Below are positions 53,018-64,000 of a DNA stretch of 64,000 nt, piece after piece; positions within the stretch are counted from its first letter, which is position 1; each line of letters begins with the position of its first letter. Where the stretch lies: positions 1 to 64,000 of the forward strand of contig JADLBL010000018.1 of NCBI GenBank assembly GCA_020847735.1, given 5' to 3'. Source of the DNA: Candidatus Eisenbacteria bacterium. Its GTDB lineage: Bacteria; Eisenbacteria; RBG-16-71-46. The translations under genes were made by a program, and so were the position numbers. The notes under the pieces were generated by a model. The model was not told the origin of the DNA. It searched no databases and worked only from the letters and a program-made list of their open reading frames with translations.

Positions 53018-53412
53018 CACCCGAACGCGCCCGGCGCAGCGGTGGGAATGGAAACTCGTCCAGCGGGAAGGAATCAGACGCCACGCGGGCCGGATTCGGG
53101 CGGCGTGCCGCTGGAGGTTGAGTAGCGGGGTCGAGTCCTGGGGACGCGCTGAAGCCGGCGCCTGCACGAGACAGCAGCCGGAGGCTCTCGATCGTCGCCG
53201 GACGGCTGCGCAACACCATCCGGAAAGGCGCTTGACGCCCCCCCTCCCCCCGGGGTGTTGGCTAGTCCCGACCCTCGCGCGGGATGCCGCTTTGATCGGG
53301 TTCATGGATCGCCGGCGACGGCGCGGCGAGCAACGGCTGGCAGTCACCCTCGGATCGAATCCGCCGAGCGGGCCGCCCGCCCACTCGCGTGTCCTTCGAT
53401 CGGAGGCCGCCC
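53018..53412. other. Divergent intergenic region
   Basis: No gene supported. It separates the minus-strand lipoprotein gene from the plus-strand secreted protein. A TTGACG (53229-53234) followed by a C-run and TAGTCC (53262-53267) could be a promoter for the plus-strand gene, but the 25-nt or longer spacing is too great for a classical pair. Confidence 0.4.
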
Positions 53413-54072
53413 GTGAGTCCGCATCGCTGGTATCCTCTGCTCCTCATGTTGCTCATCCCCGGCACTTCATCCGCGCTCCAACTTCGCTGGACCACCGGCT
53501 GGCAAAGGGCGGTGTTGTTCAACAACAAGGTCGTGGGCGCGCCACTGACGGATACCCGAGCGGTGAGCTGGGAGGACGAGACGGGGCTGGGCACCTACCT
53601 GGGATTCACGGAGAGTTCGCCGGAGTACGGCGTCCAGGCGTCAGAGATCCTCCAGATTGGTGGGACCTACTACTGGGGTGGCTACAACGGCGAAGAGCTG
53701 GTCTTCCGCAAGCTCAACTGGGGATCGCCTCCGACCACCGACTTCACGCTGGGGGATGTCGACTTCCTCGCGGTGGATCCGCCCCAGCTTCCCGTGCAAG
53801 TGCGGCTGCGGCTGGCGGAGTTGCGGCTCGGCCAGGGCACGGTGCGCTTCCGGATCGAGCTGCCGGCGCCGATGCAGGCCGAGGTCGCCGTCTTCGATGT
53901 GATGGGGCGGCTCGTTCGGCGGGTGACGGACAAGCCGCTCGTGGCCGGCACCAGCGAAGTCGCCTGGGATGGCCGCGACCGCAGCGGCGCGGTGGTGGGC
54001 TCGGGTGTCTACTTCGCGCGATTGCGTGCCGGCAGCGCTTCACAGGTCGTGCGTGTGCCGCTGGTGCGATGA
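53413..54072 (+). CDS. Secreted hypothetical protein with sorting domain
   Basis: 219 aa. The GTG at 53413 is chosen because CGGAGG lies 7 nt upstream and a signal peptide follows at once (WYPLLLMLLIPGTSSA). The mature N-terminal part (about 24-130) is aromatic- and Gly-rich (TTGWQRAVLFNNKVVG, LQIGGTYYWGGYNGEEL) with no recognised domain. The C-terminal 70 residues are the shared FlgD/type-IX-like module (VFDVMGRLVRRV, WDGRDRSGAVVGSGVYFARL). It is followed after 70 nt by another sorting-domain protein on the same strand, probably co-transcribed. Surface or released protein of unknown role. Confidence 0.78.
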   Translation: MSPHRWYPLLLMLLIPGTSSALQLRWTTGWQRAVLFNNKVVGAPLTDTRAVSWEDETGLGTYLGFTESSPEYGVQASEILQIGGTYYWGGYNGEELVFRKLNWGSPPTTDFTLGDVDFLAVDPPQLPVQVRLRLAELRLGQGTVRFRIELPAPMQAEVAVFDVMGRLVRRVTDKPLVAGTSEVAWDGRDRSGAVVGSGVYFARLRAGSASQVVRVPLVR

Positions 54073-54142
54073 ACGCAAGGCCGTCGAAGCGCCGCGTAAC
54101 GCGGAAGCGAGCAGCCGCCCCGATTGCAGACGAGGCTCGTTC

Positions 54143-56644
54143 GTGAACCGGCGTCATTCAGAGGTCGGGCCTGGTCGCTCCCCGGCACGCGTTGCGGCCC
54201 TGGTCGTGCTTTCGGTTCTACTGGGCCGCACTGGCGGCGTGGCAGCACAGTCGGCGGACCCCGACGCCTGGGTCGTGGATCCCACCGGTGCCGTGTCCGC
54301 GATCGAGCGGACGCCGGAGACCATTTATCTGGGCGGCTCGTTCTTCAATGTCGGCCCCCCCACGGGGCAGGGCTTGCCGACTCGAACCACCACCGGGGCG
54401 CCGTTCGAGAAGTATCCCCGTGTCGCGGGCACCGTCTCGGTCGTAGTCGCCGACGGCGAGCGCGGCTGGTTCATCGGCGGCACGTTCGAACGCGTGGGTG
54501 GACTTGCGCGCAAGAACCTCGCTTATGTGCACGCCGATGGCCGCGTCTCGTCGTGGGCTCCCGATCCGTCCGGATCGGTGTGGGCGCTGGCTCTCGATCG
54601 GGGGACGCTCTTCGTGGTCGGCAGCTTCGCAAACATTGCCGGCAAGCCGAGAAGCCGCGCGGCGGCGATCGACGTCGCCTCTCGCCGCGTCCTAGACTGG
54701 GATCCCGACGTCGGAGGTGGACCGGTGCTGGCGGTCGCAGTCGACTGCAACCGCGTCTACCTTGGCGGGTCGTTCAGCAGCATCGGCGGCCAGACTCGCT
54801 ACTCTCTCGCCGCGGTCGACCGTGAGGCAGGAGGTCCCACGTCGTGGGCGCCCGCCGGCAGCGGGGATCTAGTCTTCGCCATCGCAGTCGGGGGCGATGC
54901 GGTGTACGTGGGCGGACGGTTCCCGGTGATGTCGGGGCAGCTGCGCTCGCGTCTGGCGGCCTTCGACCGATCGACGAACGAGCTGCTGCCGTGGCGCTGG
55001 GAGATCGAGACGATTCCGGAGTGCTATGACTGCGGCAGCGGGCCATTCGTCCGCGCCATGGCCGTGGCGGGAGGCCGGTTGTACTTCGGAGGAGCGTTCA
55101 CACATGTGGATAGCACCGCCCGTTCGGGCCTCGCCGCCATTGAGCTCGAAACGCACGCGTTGACGGCCTGGGACCCGCAGGCAACCGGAGCGACGCCCTA
55201 CAATCTCTACGTCTACTCGATGGCGGTGCGCGGGGGCGTGGTGTACGTGGGAGGGAACTTCGACAGCCTGGGCGGCGCCGCCCACGCTTACGCCGGCGCG
55301 GTGGGTACCGCGCTCGGGCGAGCGATGGTCTGGTTCCCGAAGCCCAACGCGGATGTATATGCACTGGCGGCGACCGACCGCGCGGTCTATATCGGGGGCG
55401 ACTTCACCAGTGCCTGGAGCTGGCAACGGCGGAAGAACCTGGCAGCCCTGGACGCGCGCACGGGGGCGCTGACGAACTGGGACCCCGAGGCAGATGGCGG
55501 TGTGACGGCGATGAAGCTGTGTGGCAAGACGCTCTACGTGGCCGGCGCGTTCGACACGGTCGGACATGAGCCGCGCGAGGGGATCGCGGCCCTCGATGCC
55601 ACGACGGGGCTCGCGACGCCCTGGAATCCCGGGGTGGACGCGGCGCTTTCGCAACCGATCTGGTCGATGGCAATGCTCCACGGAACGCTGTTCCTGGGGG
55701 GGAACTTCTTTGGGGTCGGCGGAGAGGCGCGGCGCAACCTCGCGGCGGTCGACTCCGCCAGCGGGCGCGTCACGCGGTGGAACCCCGGCGCCAACAACAT
55801 CGTGACTGGCCTGGCGGTGCAGGGGGACACCTTGATCATCGGCGGAGGCTTCAAGACGCTCGGTGGATTGCCACGAGCCGGCCTCGCTGCCGTCGACACG
55901 GGCGGTACCGTCCTGACATGGCGTCCACGGGTTGACGCCGATGTCACTTCGCTCCTGCTCACGGATGGGAAGCTGATTGCGAGCGGCGTCTTCGCGGAGA
56001 CGCTCGGAGTGTGGAGGGTCCGCTGCGCGGAATTCGATCCGCAATCTGGGACGCACAAGCGGTGGATCGCGGAAGTGGACCGTGTGTTGTTCACACTGGC
56101 CTACGCCAACCACGTCTTGTATGTCGGGGGATTCTTCACGACGATCGGCGGTCAAGTTCGCAATGGCCTGGCCGCGCTGGATCTCGACACGGGCAAGGTA
56201 CTCGACTGGGATCCACAAAAGGACGCGGGTGCGGTCAACGCGCTGCAAGCCACCAACGATGCCATCTATGTTGGCGGAGGAGGGTTCCACCGCATCGGCG
56301 GCGACGGTCGCTCCGGGTTCGCGATCCTGACCCCGGCGGTGCCGCCCCCCGGCGGCGGACCACCCCTCGCGGGTGGTCACGCACTGGCACTCGCGCAGAA
56401 CGCGCCCAACCCCGCGCAGGGCTCGACGCTCGTCCGCTTCGAGATGGCCCGAGCCGGTCCCGTGTCGCTGGGGATCTACGATCTCGCGGGCCGCTGCGTC
56501 GCACGGCCGCTGCGCGGGGAAAGTCGCGCGGCCGGCCCTCACGAAATCGAGCTGCGCACCGACGGTTGGCCACCTGGGGTCTACTACGTTCGGATGGATG
56601 GTCTCGGCGAACACGCCGGCATGAGAATGGTGGTCATCCGATAG
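54143..56644 (+). CDS. Secreted beta-propeller repeat protein with sorting domain
   Basis: 833 aa. The GTG has GAGG 9 nt upstream; a signal peptide (about 16-36, ending GVAAQS) follows. The body is about 14 copies of a roughly 50-residue repeat, consensus VYVGGxFxxIGG...LAAVDxxTG...WxP (for example VYLGGSFSSIGGQTRYSLAA and LYVGGFFTTIGGQVRNGLAA), predicted to form two seven-bladed propellers. A Pro/Gly linker (about 735-748) leads to the FlgD/type-IX-like module (IYDLAGRCVARPL, PPGVYYVRMDG). Propellers of this type are common in FCB-group secretomes; a binding role is a guess. It shares orientation and probably promoter with the small secreted protein upstream. Confidence 0.88.
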   Translation: MNRRHSEVGPGRSPARVAALVVLSVLLGRTGGVAAQSADPDAWVVDPTGAVSAIERTPETIYLGGSFFNVGPPTGQGLPTRTTTGAPFEKYPRVAGTVSVVVADGERGWFIGGTFERVGGLARKNLAYVHADGRVSSWAPDPSGSVWALALDRGTLFVVGSFANIAGKPRSRAAAIDVASRRVLDWDPDVGGGPVLAVAVDCNRVYLGGSFSSIGGQTRYSLAAVDREAGGPTSWAPAGSGDLVFAIAVGGDAVYVGGRFPVMSGQLRSRLAAFDRSTNELLPWRWEIETIPECYDCGSGPFVRAMAVAGGRLYFGGAFTHVDSTARSGLAAIELETHALTAWDPQATGATPYNLYVYSMAVRGGVVYVGGNFDSLGGAAHAYAGAVGTALGRAMVWFPKPNADVYALAATDRAVYIGGDFTSAWSWQRRKNLAALDARTGALTNWDPEADGGVTAMKLCGKTLYVAGAFDTVGHEPREGIAALDATTGLATPWNPGVDAALSQPIWSMAMLHGTLFLGGNFFGVGGEARRNLAAVDSASGRVTRWNPGANNIVTGLAVQGDTLIIGGGFKTLGGLPRAGLAAVDTGGTVLTWRPRVDADVTSLLLTDGKLIASGVFAETLGVWRVRCAEFDPQSGTHKRWIAEVDRVLFTLAYANHVLYVGGFFTTIGGQVRNGLAALDLDTGKVLDWDPQKDAGAVNALQATNDAIYVGGGGFHRIGGDGRSGFAILTPAVPPPGGGPPLAGGHALALAQNAPNPAQGSTLVRFEMARAGPVSLGIYDLAGRCVARPLRGESRAAGPHEIELRTDGWPPGVYYVRMDGLGEHAGMRMVVIR

Positions 56645-56785: not shown

Positions 56786-57997
56786 ATGAAGACGACCGCC
56801 ACGCTGTTCCCGCGTGCCCGGATTCCCTACGGCACCTGGGGCAGCAGCTACTTTCCCGCCTGGCAGACGAGCGGCCTCGCGGAGGTGAACATCGGCCAGT
56901 TCGCCGGCGAGGCCGCCGCGCGCATCTACGGGATGCGCCGCGTGCCTAAGAGCGAGATCGAGTACATGGTCATCGGTTCGACCATTCCCTGGCACTGGAA
57001 GTTCTGGACCGCGCCGATGGTCGCGAGCTGCATGGGCGAGCGCCTCCCGGGCTACCACGTCGAGCAGGCGTGCGCGACCGGCCTGCAGGCGGTGCTGCTG
57101 GGCGGCGCCGAGATCGAGACGGGCGCCAAGGATGTCGTGAGCGTGCTGACGTTCGACCGCACGAGCGATTCGCCGGTGGGCGTCTTCCCCGAGCGCCGCG
57201 CGCACCAGCGCACGCACGCGATCGCCGACGTGTGGGACAACTTCGGGTTCGATCCCGCCACCGGCCGGGCGATGATCTCCGCCGCCGGCATGACCGCCCG
57301 CAAGTACAAGGTGGACCGCCGCGAGTGCGACGACATCGCCTACTGCCGCCACGAGCAGTACTGGAAGGCGAAGGACTCGGGCTTTCTCGACAAGGTGCTG
57401 GTGCCGCTCGATCTGCTCAACGTGGCGGGCAGGCCGCTCGGCCGCGTGGACGAGGACAAGGGCGTCCGCCGAATCTCGCTCGGCTCGCTGCGCGCGCAGC
57501 GCGAGCTGGACACGTGCGTGACGAGCGGCGGGCAGACGCACGCCTCCGACGGCATGGCCACGTTGCTGGTGACGAGCCCCGAGAAGGCGCGCGAGCTGTC
57601 GAAACGGCCCGAGATCGAGATCCGCTTCGTGGGCAAGGCCGAGGCGCGTACCGAGCCGAGCCTGATGCCCGAGGCGCCGGCGCTCGCGGTGCAGAAGCTG
57701 CTCCAGCGCCTCGGCCTGACCATGAAGGACGTGAAGGTGGCGAAGAACCACAACCCGTTCGCCGTCAACGACGCGGTGTTCACGAAGATCACCGGCCACG
57801 ACTGGCGGACGCTCAACCAGACCGGCTGCCCGCTCGTGTGGGGCCATCCGCAGGGCCCGACGCTGACACGCGTGCTGATCGAGGCGCTGGAGGAGACCGT
57901 GGACCTGGGCGGCGGCTACGCGCTGGTGTTCGGTTGCGCGGCCGGCGACGTCGGCATCGCGGCGCTCTTCGAAGTCAGCGAGGGAGGTGCGCGATGA
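56786..57997 (+). CDS. Thiolase family protein (acetyl-CoA acyltransferase-like)
   Basis: 403 aa. Nucleophile Cys96 (EQACATGLQAV), His354 (GHPQGPT) and Cys384 (GCAAGDVG) match the thiolase triad with the usual spacing (about 258 and 30 residues), while NHNPFAVND at 321-329 replaces the NEAFA loop. It should cleave or form the C-C bond of 3-ketoacyl-CoA. The substrate is unknown; the divergent loops (IPWHWKFWTAPM near 70) suggest an unusual acyl group. The ATG has GAGGAAC about 5 nt upstream. Its stop overlaps the ATG of the 3HCDH/ECH fusion (ATGA), so the two enzymes are made together. Confidence 0.9.
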   Translation: MKTTATLFPRARIPYGTWGSSYFPAWQTSGLAEVNIGQFAGEAAARIYGMRRVPKSEIEYMVIGSTIPWHWKFWTAPMVASCMGERLPGYHVEQACATGLQAVLLGGAEIETGAKDVVSVLTFDRTSDSPVGVFPERRAHQRTHAIADVWDNFGFDPATGRAMISAAGMTARKYKVDRRECDDIAYCRHEQYWKAKDSGFLDKVLVPLDLLNVAGRPLGRVDEDKGVRRISLGSLRAQRELDTCVTSGGQTHASDGMATLLVTSPEKARELSKRPEIEIRFVGKAEARTEPSLMPEAPALAVQKLLQRLGLTMKDVKVAKNHNPFAVNDAVFTKITGHDWRTLNQTGCPLVWGHPQGPTLTRVLIEALEETVDLGGGYALVFGCAAGDVGIAALFEVSEGGAR

Positions 57998-60117
57998 GCG
58001 CGACGACGAAGGACCCGGTCGGCGCGAAAGTGACCTCGCTGCGCCGCGACACGCTGGAGACCCTGGGGCTCGGCACGGTGCTCGAGATGTTCCGCAACGG
58101 CCGCGCGCCCGCCGACGCCGAATCGCTGGTCGAGAAGGTCTTCGGCCCGAAACACGACCGCGGCTCGCTCGTCGTCTCGGGCGCGAGCGGCATCGTCGGC
58201 GCCGGCAAGACCATGCAGCTCGGCTCGCGGCTCGAGCCGTTCGGCGTGCGGGTCGTGGCGCTCGACTTCCCCGGCGCGCCGGACGGCATCGGCAGGCAAT
58301 ATCCCGGGCTCGTTGCCGCGTTCGGCCCGGCCGGCGCCGCGCGGATCATGGGCAACATCGTGCGGCTCACGTACGACGGAAAGTCGCTGCCGCCGGAGCT
58401 CAAGGGCCTCAAGCCTCGCTTCCTGCTCGAGGCGATCCCCGAGATCCTCGAGGTCAAGCGCGCCCACTACGCGCTCTTCCGCCAGAGCTTCCCGGGCATC
58501 GAGATCCGCTCCGTCACGTCGGGCTTTCCGGCGAGGGAGCTGGGCGTCGGCGTCGCGCACCCGGCGTTCCCGCACGAGATCAACAAGATGTGGGAGATCG
58601 TCGAGCACGAGCCCTCGGCGGTGACGCAGCTGCTGTGGGCGCTCGGCCTCGTGCCCGTGCCGGTCAGCGACGACTGGTCGTTCGTCCTCGACGTGCTGTT
58701 CTGCGGCGTCACGCACGCGGGGCTGCAGGTCCACCGGCGCACGAACCTGCCGTTCTGGAAACTCGACAAGCTCACGCGCCGCCTGATCGGCCCCAACCCG
58801 TTCCGCGCGCACGACGCGATCGGCAGCAAGGGCGCCGACTTCCTCACCTGGTCGTGCCTGCACCACCTCTCGGAACACTACGGCGCGCTCTTCACGCCCA
58901 CGCCCGAGCTGGTCGAGCGCAAGGAGACCGGCCAGGCGTGGTATCCGCCCGATCACTTCCGGCCGCTCGTGGACTGGAAGCTGTCGGCCACCGAGACGCA
59001 GGAGTTCGAGGCCGCCATGCTCGGACCGATCGTGCAGATGACCGCGCTGATGCTGCATGAGCGGCGCGCCGAGCTGCCGCTGCTGAACGCGATCGGCGAG
59101 TCGTGCGCGCAGTTCCGCCGCGGCGCGGTCGCCATGGTGCGCGAGCTGGGATCCGAGAGGGCGAAAGCCCTGGTCGCCGCCTACCACGAGCAGAACCCCG
59201 CGGCCGCGCAGAGCGCGTGGCACCCGCGGGCACTCGACGACATGAGCGGGCCCGCGTGGCGGCAGCTCTACGTCAACGCCGAGCACGACGGCGCCGTCGG
59301 CGTCGTGACGCTGTCGCGCGAGAGCTACTGCTGGGACGTGGACCGCGAACTGAATCGCGCCCTCGACTGGCTCAAGGCCGCCGGTATCCGGCGAGTGATC
59401 GTGACCGGCGACTTCCACCTGAGCACGCAGATGGTGGGCGCGGACACGAGCGACTTCTTCCCCGCGCTCGAGAATCTCGAGCCTGGCCTCGCGATCACGA
59501 ACGGCTGGTCGAAGACGGCCAGGCGCTTCTGGGACGACTTCGAGACCAGCGTCGCGTTCGTCGGCGGCAAGCGCTGCCTGGGCGGCATGTACGAGCTGCT
59601 CATGCACGCGCACTTCGTGGTCACCGTGGACGACGCGCGCCTGGGCTGGCCCGAGGTGAACCTGCCCGTCGTGCCCGGCATGGAAGGCTGCCACTGGCCG
59701 TTCCGCCGCGCCGCCAAGGAACACTGGCCGAAGCTCGCGCACGCGCTGCTCTCGGGCGAGGCGGTCAAGGCGAAGGACGCCGTCGGCTGGCTGGTGGACG
59801 CCGCCGAGCCGCTGGACCGCGCGCTCGCCACGGCGTGGGCGCTGGCGAGCGGATCGCGCACGGACATCGCCCGCCGCCCGCTCGCGGCCGGACCGCTCGC
59901 CGGCGTGCCGACCTCCCCGCCGGCGCTCGCCGCGCCGGACGACCCGCTCGTCGAAGCAGGCCGCGCCGGGATCGTCGCGTGCATGACCGCCGCGTGCGGG
60001 ACGACCGCCACCGAGGCCCTGGCGCTGCAGGCGAAGCTCGCCGCCGAGTTCCTCGCCTCGAAGGCCTGCCGCGACGGCCGCGTGGGCCAGGAGGCGGCAA
60101 GGGTGATGACGGTGTAG
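57994..60117 (+). CDS. Reverse-order 3-hydroxyacyl-CoA dehydrogenase / enoyl-CoA hydratase fusion
   Basis: 707 aa. The N-terminal half (about 55-400) is a divergent 3-hydroxyacyl-CoA dehydrogenase: the nucleotide loop is GASGIVGAG (63-71), and His189 with Glu201 keep the 12-residue spacing of the catalytic dyad. The C-terminal part (about 425-640) is a crotonase domain with both catalytic glutamates, Glu534 (GGMYELL) and Glu554 (GWPEVNLP), 20 residues apart as in enoyl-CoA hydratase. FadB-type enzymes have the opposite order; dehydrogenase-first fusions are known in archaea such as Metallosphaera. GGGAGG precedes the ATG, which overlaps the thiolase stop. Together they could carry three beta-oxidation steps. 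Confidence 0.85.
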   Translation: MSATTKDPVGAKVTSLRRDTLETLGLGTVLEMFRNGRAPADAESLVEKVFGPKHDRGSLVVSGASGIVGAGKTMQLGSRLEPFGVRVVALDFPGAPDGIGRQYPGLVAAFGPAGAARIMGNIVRLTYDGKSLPPELKGLKPRFLLEAIPEILEVKRAHYALFRQSFPGIEIRSVTSGFPARELGVGVAHPAFPHEINKMWEIVEHEPSAVTQLLWALGLVPVPVSDDWSFVLDVLFCGVTHAGLQVHRRTNLPFWKLDKLTRRLIGPNPFRAHDAIGSKGADFLTWSCLHHLSEHYGALFTPTPELVERKETGQAWYPPDHFRPLVDWKLSATETQEFEAAMLGPIVQMTALMLHERRAELPLLNAIGESCAQFRRGAVAMVRELGSERAKALVAAYHEQNPAAAQSAWHPRALDDMSGPAWRQLYVNAEHDGAVGVVTLSRESYCWDVDRELNRALDWLKAAGIRRVIVTGDFHLSTQMVGADTSDFFPALENLEPGLAITNGWSKTARRFWDDFETSVAFVGGKRCLGGMYELLMHAHFVVTVDDARLGWPEVNLPVVPGMEGCHWPFRRAAKEHWPKLAHALLSGEAVKAKDAVGWLVDAAEPLDRALATAWALASGSRTDIARRPLAAGPLAGVPTSPPALAAPDDPLVEAGRAGIVACMTAACGTTATEALALQAKLAAEFLASKACRDGRVGQEAARVMTV

Positions 60118-60643: not shown

Positions 60644-60893
60644 CCGCCGACAGGTGACGCCGCGACGGCGCCACTCCTCACGCCGCCCGGCACGACCTTC
60701 GACGCATCCATCGCGCGGGCCCGCCGATTCGCGCCGAAGGAACGCGCCAGGAGACTTTGCATGCGGCAGTCGTGAATTTGCGTGCTTCGCCCGTCATGCG
60801 AGCGTTCAATGGTTCGTACGGGAACGGTTCCACGGTGGGCCCGTGACGCCAGGCACCGCGAGCTCCGCTCCACTTGCGTCCGGAGGCAGTCCA

Positions 60894-63143
60894 GTGTCCC
60901 CAGGCCCGTTCATTCGCTCGTCCGTCGCGCTCGCGGGTGCGATGGCGCTCGGCGCGGCGCTTCTGGTCGCGCCGCTCCATGCCGCCGTCGTCTCATCGTT
61001 CGACGCGTCCGCCGAAGGCTGGCTCATCATCGGCGACAACAGCGCCAACTGGTCGGGCACGGGCGGCAACCCCGGCGGCTGCCTCGCGATCAACGATCTC
61101 GCCACGGGCCAGCTCAACTACGCCTCCGCGCCCGCGCGCTTCCTCGGCGACTGGAGCGCGATGGGCGGAGCCGACTCGCTCGCCGTGGACATCTACTTCG
61201 TCAACAGCTCGGGCGGACCGCTCTACACGAACCCCTGGCTCTTCAGCATCTCCGGCCCCGGCGGTTCGGCGATCGCGCGCGCGCCCTTCCCCGCCCCCGC
61301 TCAGGGCGCGTGGACGACCTACGCGGTGACGCTCGATTCGACCGTCTGGACGATGCAGAGCGGAACGTGGTCGGCGCTGCTCGCGCAGGTGCAGTCCCTG
61401 AAGGTCGCCGCCGAGTACGTGACCGGCGACGAGATCGTGGAACTCGACAACGCGCGCCTCACGCGCTCGCCCGCTCCGCTGTTCGTGCCGTGCGTCTCGT
61501 CCGTGTTCGCCGGCACCGCTCTCGAGGACTGGTCGTTCTCGAACACGAGCGCCTCGAATCCCGGCTCGGGCGGCACGGGGGGCGGATTCCTCAAGCTGAG
61601 CAACAGCGCGGCGCAGGCCGGGCGCGCCCTCGCACCGGCCCGCTATCTCGGCGACTGGCTGCCGCTCGATGGCAGTGGCGCGATCTCGTTCGACCTCCGC
61701 GTCGTCGTGGCGGGCTCCGCGGCGACGGGCAGCGGGGCGTTCGTGCGGATCAGCGGCCCGGGCGGCTCGGCGCACGTGCCGGTTGCGGCGGGCGATCTGC
61801 CGCTCCCCTCGCTCCTGTGGAAACGCTTCACGTTTCCGATCGCGGAATCCGCGTGGACGCTCGACTCGGGCACCTGGACCGGACTGCTGGCCGGGGTCGA
61901 GGAGCTGAGCCTGGACGCGAACCTGTTCACCGGCGCCGAGCAGATCGGCTTCGACAACGTGGGACGGCTGGGCGCCGCGTGCGCCCCGCCCGACGAGACG
62001 GTGACGCTGCACGATCCCGACGTGAGCCTGTGCTCCACGGGCGGACTGGTCGGCGTGGGCGGCCTGGCCCGCGATCCGGCGACGGGTGTGATGCACGCGC
62101 TCGCACGCGGGACCGGGTCCACCGACGGGGTCTATTCCCTGAACGGCCCGAGCGCGGGGCGGAAGCTGCAAACCTACGATCGCCCTGCAGGCCTGATCTT
62201 CACCCCGGACGGCGACGGGTTCGTGAGCGAGGACTACAGCGGGAAGATCTTCCGGTTCGTGGACGCCGAGTCGTCCATGGTCTGGGTGGATGGCATGCAC
62301 CCGGGCGACGACGATCCGTACGGCATGGCCGTTGCGCCGCCCGGCTTCAGCGGCTCCAACATCTCGCCCGGCGACGTGATCGTCGTGGACTGCGGCTACA
62401 GCGGGCCGGACCAGATCTGGTCGTTTCCGCCGGCGGCCGCCGCGTCGGAGCGCCTGCTCGCACCCGATCCGGGCAACGTGGACTGGTTCGACGTCGCCGC
62501 TTCCCAGGACGGCCGCGTGTGGGTGAGCGACGCCCTCGCGGGCGCGTCGCTCACGCGATTGTTCGCGGACGGCACGACGTCGCCGCTCACGCTGGACGCC
62601 ACGCTGGGCGACCCCGTCGGCCTCGCCTGGGACGGGCGCGAGGGCGTGTTGTATGTCGCCAGCCTCGCGCCTCCGGCGCTCTATCGGGTGGATCCAGTCA
62701 CCGGCGGGACCCGGCTGGTCGCGGACGGCTTCGCGAGTCCGGCCTACGCGGGTATCGAGGTGGACGAAAACGCGCGCCGCCTATGGCTCGCCGATGCAGG
62801 GCGGAACCGTGTTTACACGTTCTGCCTGCCCGGGACCGCGACCGAGGTCGAGGACGGCTCCCGGCCGGAGACGTTCACGCTTCACGCGGCACCCAATCCG
62901 CTGCGCTCGATCACGACGCTCACGTTCTCGCTGCCGACGGCGGCGAGGACCAGCGTGGACGTGTTCGACCTCTCGGGGAGGCGCGTCGTCCGCCTGCGCG
63001 ACGGTCCGCTCGCGTCCGGGGAGCATGCGCTGCGCTGGGACGGCCGCGACGCGGCTGGCCGCCCCGTGGCGCCGGGGCTCTACCTCGCGCGCGTCACCGC
63101 AGGCACCCGGTCGGTTTCCCGCCGCGTCGTGGTCTGCCGTTAG
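60894..63143 (+). CDS. Secreted protein: two laminin-B-like domains, propeller, sorting domain
   Basis: 749 aa. The GTG at 60894 is chosen because GGAGG lies 7 nt upstream and a signal peptide follows (about 9-33, ending PLHAAV). Two similar jelly-roll segments (about 35-200 and 205-365), each with FLGDWSAMGG or YLGDWLPLDGSG and a late WTxxSGTW motif, resemble laminin-B-type domains. A six-bladed NHL/SGL-like propeller follows (about 375-650; FTPDGDGFVSEDYSGKIFRF, DVAASQDGRVWVSDALAG). The FlgD/type-IX-like module ends the protein (VFDLSGRRVVRL, WDGRDAAGRPV, PGLYLARV). An ATG-less start and the domain order suggest an exported binding protein. Confidence 0.82.
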   Translation: MSPGPFIRSSVALAGAMALGAALLVAPLHAAVVSSFDASAEGWLIIGDNSANWSGTGGNPGGCLAINDLATGQLNYASAPARFLGDWSAMGGADSLAVDIYFVNSSGGPLYTNPWLFSISGPGGSAIARAPFPAPAQGAWTTYAVTLDSTVWTMQSGTWSALLAQVQSLKVAAEYVTGDEIVELDNARLTRSPAPLFVPCVSSVFAGTALEDWSFSNTSASNPGSGGTGGGFLKLSNSAAQAGRALAPARYLGDWLPLDGSGAISFDLRVVVAGSAATGSGAFVRISGPGGSAHVPVAAGDLPLPSLLWKRFTFPIAESAWTLDSGTWTGLLAGVEELSLDANLFTGAEQIGFDNVGRLGAACAPPDETVTLHDPDVSLCSTGGLVGVGGLARDPATGVMHALARGTGSTDGVYSLNGPSAGRKLQTYDRPAGLIFTPDGDGFVSEDYSGKIFRFVDAESSMVWVDGMHPGDDDPYGMAVAPPGFSGSNISPGDVIVVDCGYSGPDQIWSFPPAAAASERLLAPDPGNVDWFDVAASQDGRVWVSDALAGASLTRLFADGTTSPLTLDATLGDPVGLAWDGREGVLYVASLAPPALYRVDPVTGGTRLVADGFASPAYAGIEVDENARRLWLADAGRNRVYTFCLPGTATEVEDGSRPETFTLHAAPNPLRSITTLTFSLPTAARTSVDVFDLSGRRVVRLRDGPLASGEHALRWDGRDAAGRPVAPGLYLARVTAGTRSVSRRVVVCR

Positions 63144-63228
63144 CGCTCCCCGGAAGCGCCTGGCGTAACGCCTGGGCGCCGGGGAAGCCTGTCAGATCCT
63201 GCGACCCGATCCATTCGAGGAGAGCCTC

Positions 63229-64000
63229 ATGCGCATCCTTGCTGCTGTTGTCGCCTTCCTGCTGTTCGCCTCGAGCGCGACCCCCGTGCACGCCGCCTGG
63301 CCGAACAGCCCGTTCACGAACCTGCCGCTGTGCACCGCGGCGGACAATCAGGAGACCCCGAGGATCATCCCGGATGGCACAGGAGGCGCGATCGTCACCT
63401 GGCAGGACTTCCGCAGCGGCACGAACTACGACATCTTCGCGCAGCACGTGCTGGCGTCGGGTGCGGTGGATCCGGCGTGGCCGGCCGATGGCCGCGCGCT
63501 GTGCACCGCGGCGAACGACCAGAATCTCCCGATGATCGTCCCGGATGACTCTGGTGGCGCGATCGTCACCTGGCAGGACGGCCGCAGCGGTACGAACTGG
63601 GACATCTACGCGCAGCACGTGCTGGCGTCGGGTGCGGTGGATCCGGCGTGGCCGGCCGACGGCCGCGCGCTGTGCACCGCGGCGAACTATCAGATCTACC
63701 CAATGATCGCGCCGGATGGCTCTGGTGGCGCGATCGTCACCTGGCAGGACATCCGCAACGGCGGGTTTTACAACATCTACGTGCAGCATGTGCTGGCCTC
63801 GGGTGCGGTGGATCCGGCGTGGCCGGCCGACGGCCGCGCGCTGATCACCATGGCGAACAACCAGACTGACCCGATGATCGTCCCGGATGGCTCTGGTGGC
63901 GTGATCGTCACCTGGGAGGACTACCGAAGCGGCACGGTCAGCGACATCTATGCCCAGCACCTGCTGGCGTCGGGTGCGGTGGATCCGGCGTGGCCCACGG
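63229..64000 (+). CDS. Secreted tandem-repeat protein, 3' end outside the window
   Basis: The frame is open from the ATG at 63229 to the window end (257 codons). GAGGAGAG precedes the ATG; a signal peptide (about 1-23, ending PVHAAW) follows. From residue 34 the protein is a 57-residue repeat: LCTAANDQ, then MIVPDGSGGAIVTWQD, then RSGTNWDIYAQHVLASG and AVDPAWPADGRA. Three complete units and most of a fourth are visible. Repeats of this type occur in exported proteins of FCB-group genomes that often end in the same sorting module; the C terminus is not visible here. Function unknown. Confidence 0.8.
   Translation, partial: MRILAAVVAFLLFASSATPVHAAWPNSPFTNLPLCTAADNQETPRIIPDGTGGAIVTWQDFRSGTNYDIFAQHVLASGAVDPAWPADGRALCTAANDQNLPMIVPDDSGGAIVTWQDGRSGTNWDIYAQHVLASGAVDPAWPADGRALCTAANYQIYPMIAPDGSGGAIVTWQDIRNGGFYNIYVQHVLASGAVDPAWPADGRALITMANNQTDPMIVPDGSGGVIVTWEDYRSGTVSDIYAQHLLASGAVDPAWPT
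63328..64000 (+). repeat. 171-bp tandem coding repeat
   Basis: The segment beginning CTGGCGTCGG recurs at 63451, 63622, 63793 and 63964, exactly 171 bp apart each time. Long stretches are identical between units (for example CGGTGGATCCGGCGTGGCC), so the duplication is recent or kept uniform by recombination. The array runs out of the window. Confidence 0.92.

Follow-up and report, generated by a model that had tools for sequence, protein, structure and literature searches.

A divergent dehydrogenase-first 3HCDH-ECH fusion and its partner thiolase as a candidate module of lower benzoyl-CoA catabolism in uncultured phyla

Here we describe a conserved gene pair from the first 64,000 nucleotides of contig JADLBL010000018.1 in a Candidatus Eisenbacteria genome (GenBank assembly GCA_020847735.1), a stretch that we call the window. 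The pair consists of P1, a fusion of a 3-hydroxyacyl-CoA dehydrogenase (3HCDH) and a crotonase (ECH), and P2, the adjoining thiolase; L and G numbers below denote the loci and genomes compared. The P1/P2 family most probably serves the lower benzoyl-CoA pathway, and from genomic context we infer, with a probability of about one half, a beta-oxidation module specialised for the open-chain dicarboxylyl-CoA that follows benzoyl-CoA ring cleavage. P1 would combine enoyl-CoA hydratase with NAD-linked L-3-hydroxyacyl-CoA dehydrogenase activity, and P2 would serve as a 3-oxoacyl-CoA thiolase. In hosts with Bcr and Oah, including the window's own genome, Oah yields 3-hydroxypimeloyl-CoA, which P1 would oxidise with NAD+ to 3-oxopimeloyl-CoA, for P2 to cleave into glutaryl-CoA and acetyl-CoA; the hydratase half may act on 2,3-dehydropimeloyl-CoA or, later, on crotonyl-CoA. 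Aerobic Box hosts would use the module on C6 substrates (dehydro/3-hydroxyadipyl-CoA). More tentatively, P1 and P2 may associate physically as an undescribed trifunctional-type complex, present in many uncultured phyla, that is dedicated, in the anaerobic (Bcr/Oah) as well as the aerobic (Box) pathway, to the dicarboxylyl-CoA produced when the benzoyl-CoA ring is opened.

The two genes and their junction lie in the window as follows.

56786..57997, + strand: P2, divergent thiolase of 403 aa, directly upstream of P1 on the same strand
57983..57987, + strand: GGAGG, a ribosome-binding-like sequence for P1 within the 3' end of P2, seen in the sequence
57994..57997, + strand: ATGA overlap of the P2 TGA stop (57995-57997) with the P1 ATG, a translational-coupling geometry, likewise seen in the sequence
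57994..60117, + strand: P1, dehydrogenase-first 3HCDH-ECH fusion of 707 aa, with its ATG at 57994 and its stop ending at 60117

Among bacterial and archaeal genome contigs, a scan recovered 79 P1 loci at 49-74% identity, all in records titled as metagenome-assembled genomes (MAGs) and with some genomes reached twice; conservation of the frame in that many loci at that identity excludes a chance frame. By record title, the P2-P1 pair occurs in at least 14 phyla. The thiolase lies upstream of P1 in all 78 loci where it could be found; in 72 of these the two genes overlap or are separated by a short gap (-38 to +40 nt). Loci lacking it are, as far as seen, contig-edge or frameshifted cases. Within the fusion, 198 of 707 positions are near-invariant (>= 97% conserved). 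Bacteroidota, Planctomycetota and Eisenbacteria each appear at several places in the P1 tree, a scatter that suggests transfer or mis-binning. Indeed, some phylum labels are probably mis-binned, since the titles conflict with how the genes are related: the ECH and ALDH genes of an 'Acidimicrobiia' MAG are 92-95% identical to those of a Vicinamibacterales MAG (L056/L076), a 'Planctomycetota' title (L027/L029) falls within Eisenbacteria, and one carrier (L063) is labelled 'Nealsonbacteria'. Carriage of the pair by plasmids was considered and rejected, as no plasmid record covers 80% of the query and the matches are to the crotonase domain only.

The genes surrounding the pair in its carriers were clustered and then named by NCBIfam, with Oah over cut-off and the Dch, Had, BcrA/B and Hcr families below cut-off. 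P2 and P1 share same-strand runs with these genes in several arrangements: Bcr...Had-Oah-Dch-P2-P1 (L042, L064), Had-Oah-Dch-Bcr-P2-P1 (L060, L071), Bcr-P2-P1-Had-Oah-Dch (L088, L089), P2-P1-BcrC-BcrB-BcrA/D (L067) and P1-Oah (L095, with Oah over cut-off); in L037 and L099, Oah and Had lie a few kb from the pair. A strong Oah falls within about 10 kb of the pair in nine loci by hand count, including L095 and L099, both outside the 50-genome panel used below, and we base the co-localisation on these gene orders and not on a probability; for the window itself, Bcr-Oah sits on another contig. In L076, P2-P1 directly follows BoxC and BoxB, which both exceed the cut-off, along with genes for a hydratase and an aldehyde dehydrogenase, and neither a Bcr-type gene nor Oah was found in that genome. 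These shared operons and the BoxC/BoxB neighbours, together with the enrichment of Oah and HGD-D among carriers, argue for a role in benzoyl-CoA catabolism. The initial annotation of this DNA had supposed a dedicated acyl-CoA pathway; the Bcr, Oah, Had and Dch contexts and the Box context support that idea and narrow it to benzoyl-CoA catabolism.

The same neighbourhoods bear on the main rival, in which P1/P2 would act upstream of benzoyl-CoA and shorten, by beta-oxidation, the side chain of cinnamoyl- or coumaroyl-CoA derived from phenylpropanoids or phenylalanine, giving benzoyl- or 4-hydroxybenzoyl-CoA and acetyl-CoA. Such a pathway needs the same three activities, benzoyl-CoA is the entry common to the Bcr and Box contexts, and Hcr-type, aryl/acyl-CoA ligase, IorAB and ADP-forming ligase genes do lie near the pair in carriers; carriers without Oah would also be accounted for. 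We nevertheless consider it unlikely, because P1/P2 is the sole 3HCDH/thiolase pair in the Had-Oah-Dch-Bcr operons, whose lower pathway would otherwise be left without one, and because a separate SDR and a conventional thiolase lie near Hcr in L060. The box operon of L076 would similarly be left without a 3-hydroxyadipyl-CoA dehydrogenase and a thiolase.

A place in the lower benzoyl-CoA pathway also agrees with the genome from which the window comes, an Eisenbacteria-like MAG that is probably a benzoyl-CoA degrader. On its contig C15, Had and Oah exceed the cut-off and are accompanied by Dch, BcrC, BcrB and two activases, with a Bcr-Dch-SDR-Oah-Had operon at L112:7817-15692 (G000:C15). No thiolase and no 3HCDH is found among the genes of this operon, which is a further reason for assigning these steps to P1/P2.

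Co-occurrence was compared between a panel of 50 carrier genomes from many phyla and a set of relatives comprising 12 carriers and 87 non-carriers. Oah is found in 32/50 carriers (28 over cut-off, 4 as strong fragments) and 4/12 carrier relatives versus 9/87 non-carrier relatives (Fisher p 5e-10), and HGD-D (Bcr-type) in 44/50 and 8/12 versus 33/87 (p 2e-8), the carrier and control panels differing in taxonomy. That difference weighs against our interpretation, as do several further observations. Among Eisenbacteria relatives alone, the Oah association is weak or marginal (4/12 versus 9/87, p 0.05). Three genomes of the same genus or family (G001, G002, G007) have Oah without the pair, four other genomes (G006, G011, G016, G017) have the pair without Oah or HGD-D, and 3/50 carriers (G123, G129, G131) are without Oah, HGD-D and BoxB. 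In the window genome, the pair lies on C18 and the Bcr operon on C15, and therefore the link there is one of co-occurrence only; furthermore, an SDR dehydrogenase inside the C15 operon (L112:12736-13485) could do the dehydrogenation in this organism. Because Oah-only and pair-only genomes exist, the pair is neither necessary nor sufficient for the pathway, a status reminiscent of Aromatoleum aabC, whose mutants keep growing after a longer lag (PMC9795900). On the same ground, we rejected a strict link between the pair and Oah. Box genes were likewise rejected as the explanation of the Oah-negative carriers, BoxB being present in few carriers and three carriers having no Bcr-type, Oah or Box genes.

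The carriers in which Bcr-type, Oah and Box genes are all missing (G006, G123, G129, G131) would fit a different reading, in which P1/P2 is a general short-chain beta-oxidation enzyme, turning crotonyl-CoA into acetyl-CoA or similar, that is simply frequent in aromatic degraders; C4 steps are needed too after glutaryl-CoA. This seems doubtful to us, as four strong canonical 3HCDH_N genes are already present in the window genome, the fusion is extremely and uniformly divergent while holding its near-invariant positions, and the pair repeatedly belongs to operons with Oah, Had and Dch.

The divergence of P1 is such that both halves fall below the Pfam gathering cut-offs (3HCDH_N 12.4 versus 22 bits; ECH_1 17.1 versus 27), and NCBIfam returns weak crotonase matches only. 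Some relatives lie just under the Pfam cut-off (L088, 3HCDH_N 21.3 versus 22; L009, 3HCDH 21.0 versus 22.1), and others exceed the crotonase cut-offs (L064, ECH_2 34.1 versus 27.2; L080, ECH_1 34.8 versus 27). A profile built from 65 relatives matches the 3HCDH-family diketoreductase 4dyd in its N-terminal half (profile positions 64-270, E 2.5e-5) and crotonases in its C-terminal half (positions 418-624, E 2e-15). The AlphaFold2 model (mean pLDDT 90.5, pTM 0.91) recovers both folds, the Rossmann fold with high confidence, and its best PDB matches by Foldseek are E. coli 3mog (E 2e-11), FadB and trifunctional enzyme (TFE) alpha subunits (1wdk, 6ysv and 6tnm among the fold matches) and human HCDH (1f0y/1il0, TMt about 0.7). 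Like P1, 3mog, which we take to be the 3-hydroxyadipyl-CoA dehydrogenase PaaH, has an N-domain followed by two helical C-domains, although identity over the match is 16% and 3mog is without a crotonase domain; this best match, too, counts in favour of the proposed dicarboxylyl-CoA role. The initial annotation had placed the dehydrogenase first and the crotonase second, and had named an N-terminal half outside the 3HCDH fold as the result that would count against it; profile, model and structure matches all bear out the order and reject that possibility. The regions of P1 are as follows.

58165..58893, + strand: 3HCDH-like region, residues about 58-300, a Rossmann N-domain and first helical domain (4dyd profile match, model)
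58180..58209, + strand: GASGIVGAGK dinucleotide loop, residues 63-72, with GxxGxxG and not GxGxxG spacing
58981..59208, + strand: second 3HCDH C-terminal-like helical region, residues about 330-405 (PF00725 match at residues 347-411 of the relative L009, just below cut-off; model helices)
59272..59853, + strand: crotonase domain, residues about 427-620 (profile, model, conserved residues)

The initial annotation had also contrasted the dehydrogenase-first order with bacterial FadB and linked such fusions to archaea; the order is in fact neither archaeal nor exceptional. Two bacterial loci, L019 (genome G071) and L020 (genome G052), hold canonical dehydrogenase-first fusions (L019:1168-3213, L020:933-3005) with strong Pfam matches and an adjacent thiolase, and P1 is a collinear homologue (hhalign of P1 77-684 against L019 30-628: 562 columns, E 2.5e-21, 28% identity); the NCBIfam Staph_FadB model likewise puts its crotonase part at 539-580 of 752. 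The FadN-like architecture of B. subtilis is of this dehydrogenase-first 3HCDH-ECH type. P1 resembles the L019 and L020 fusions in domain order, length (about 660-700 aa), HPxFP motif and possession of an adjacent thiolase, and differs from them in that they have a canonical GxGxxG loop and strong Pfam matches, and in that their thiolase lies downstream where that of P1 lies upstream. In a whole-protein tree, very long branches split the P1 family, with its phyla mixed inside, from L019/L020; the simplest reading of the sequences is a single fusion architecture with an extremely divergent P1 branch. As far as found, the P1/P2 family is a divergent, deeply conserved and apparently unnamed variant of a known enzyme architecture. 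FadB/FadJ and the alpha subunit of the mitochondrial TFE, with FadA/FadI, similarly spread three activities over two neighbouring genes (those of P1/P2 being predicted), but their crotonase is N-terminal to the dehydrogenase, the reverse of P1, and P2 differs in having HNPF.

The L019 fusion and its thiolase sit between Bcr-type genes of G071, which adds to the case for a benzoyl-CoA role of P1/P2; perhaps they are a second solution to the same pathway step. Replacement of P1 by an L019-type fusion in Oah-positive Eisenbacteria without P1 was not seen, full-length L019-type fusions occurring in G071 and G052 only.

The catalytic pairs picked out beforehand, H189/E201 (12 residues apart) and E534/E554, stand at the positions given, and each is invariant in 79/79 family members. 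So are S176 and residues G63, G66, G69, G71 and K72 of the dinucleotide loop, and D91, where the second strand ends, is almost invariant and suggests NAD rather than NADP. In the crotonase half, G482-A483-D484 and G530 are invariant in the same 79 and G531 nearly so, these residues making up the oxyanion-hole region. The very divergent surroundings that had been noted, the GASGIVGAG loop among them, are evident in the Pfam scores and the GxxGxxG spacing; judged from the sequences, this divergence is a tightly conserved family feature, not a quirk of the window's genome.

By hhalign mapping, P1 departs from canonical 3HCDH in several places: there is an extra residue in the glycine loop, which therefore does not read GxGxxG, about 8 residues are missing between S176 and H189, HPxFP stands for HFFNP, and an invariant Asp (D233) aligns with human Asn208. 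Together, these changes could mean that the redox role of the dehydrogenase half is lost or altered (the half being structural, for example, or acting on a cyclic substrate), leaving hydratase and thiolase as the working activities. We regard this as quite improbable, given the invariance of H189, E201, S176 and the loop glycines, the near-invariance of D91 and the confidently predicted Rossmann fold; moreover, L019-type fusions with a canonical loop share both HPxFP and the Asp.

P2 scores above the Pfam cut-offs for Thiolase_N and Thiolase_C (56.0 and 57.6 bits versus 26.4 and 27) and under every NCBIfam thiolase cut-off shown, its closest PDB thiolase being 9bwk (E 2e-36). It has the catalytic motifs C96 (EQACATG), H354 (GHP) and C384 (GCAAG), with HNPF at 322-325 in the NEAF position, and C96, H322-F325, H354 and C384 are all invariant in the family. 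Other thiolases carry NEAF, HEAF or HDCF at this position; P2 has none of the three, and in place of CxG it has CAA. The proposal of a thiolase with an unusual active-site loop, coupled to the fusion, is thus upheld by HNPF and by the ATGA overlap.

Comparable chemistry has been proposed in Aromatoleum sp. CIB, where AabB, AabC and AabD are the candidate hydratase, 3-hydroxypimelyl-CoA dehydrogenase and 3-oxopimelyl-CoA thiolase; we liken them to P1/P2 by their described chemistry, the Aromatoleum hydratase and dehydrogenase being separate proteins, unlike the fused P1 (PMC9795900). That hydratase, dehydrogenase and thiolase are assigned to the same steps there is an additional argument for the benzoyl-CoA role. 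In 2022, the year in which AabC was proposed (PMC9795900), the anaerobic benzoyl-CoA route had its 3-hydroxypimeloyl-CoA dehydrogenase listed as unknown in GapMind (PMC9007349). In a benzene-degrading member of the Desulfobacterota, a thiolase and an HCDH with consecutive accession numbers have been assigned to the 3-hydroxypimeloyl-CoA step (PMC13101534). The pathway counts in a survey of Krumholzibacteriota with bcr go no further than 3-hydroxypimeloyl-CoA (PMC10936416). If our interpretation is correct, P1/P2 would supply this dehydrogenase for lineages with none known, and the step becomes directly testable through a two-gene candidate that many uncultured phyla share. The pair would also mark aromatic turnover in MAGs, as current Pfam and NCBIfam cut-offs leave the fusion unnamed.

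Other genes recur around the pair. Beside the pair and Oah/Dch/Had lies a lone HGD-D (PF06050) gene, coding for about 415-430 aa and accompanied by one CoA-activase, and some carriers (e.g., G124/L060) hold one HGD-D gene in total, where classical Bcr has two adjacent; the product could be a benzoyl-CoA reductase that is homomeric, or else a protein of the double-cubane type. In 12 loci, a conserved 2-dehydropantoate-reductase-like (KPR/ApbA) gene accompanies the Had and Bcr genes, with no obvious role in an aromatic pathway. Behind P2-P1 in a Longimicrobiales MAG (L037:10100-12507) come an SDR, an SCP-x-type thiolase that is a distant BbsB match, and a DUF35-like gene.

L042:558-1820, L043:10125-11369, L050:3690-4934, L060:4663-5913, L064:670-1872, L071:4713-5948: single HGD-D gene
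Among L035, L042, L043, L050, L060, L064, L066, L071 (e.g., L066:15824-16774): KPR/ApbA-like gene

In the window, the frames around the pair look non-metabolic by eye: those upstream encode secreted repeat proteins, and downstream lies one for a small membrane protein. Secreted-looking proteins at 53389-54072, 53969-56644 and 60654-63143 have in common a FlgD/T9SS-like C-terminal segment (VFDxxGRxVxxL...GxxxxxWDGRD). Close to the window end, at 63326-63995, lies a 171-bp tandem repeat (3.9 copies, 84% matches); the repeat is overlapped by a long minus-strand open reading frame (63094-63960), perhaps the antisense of a repeat protein.

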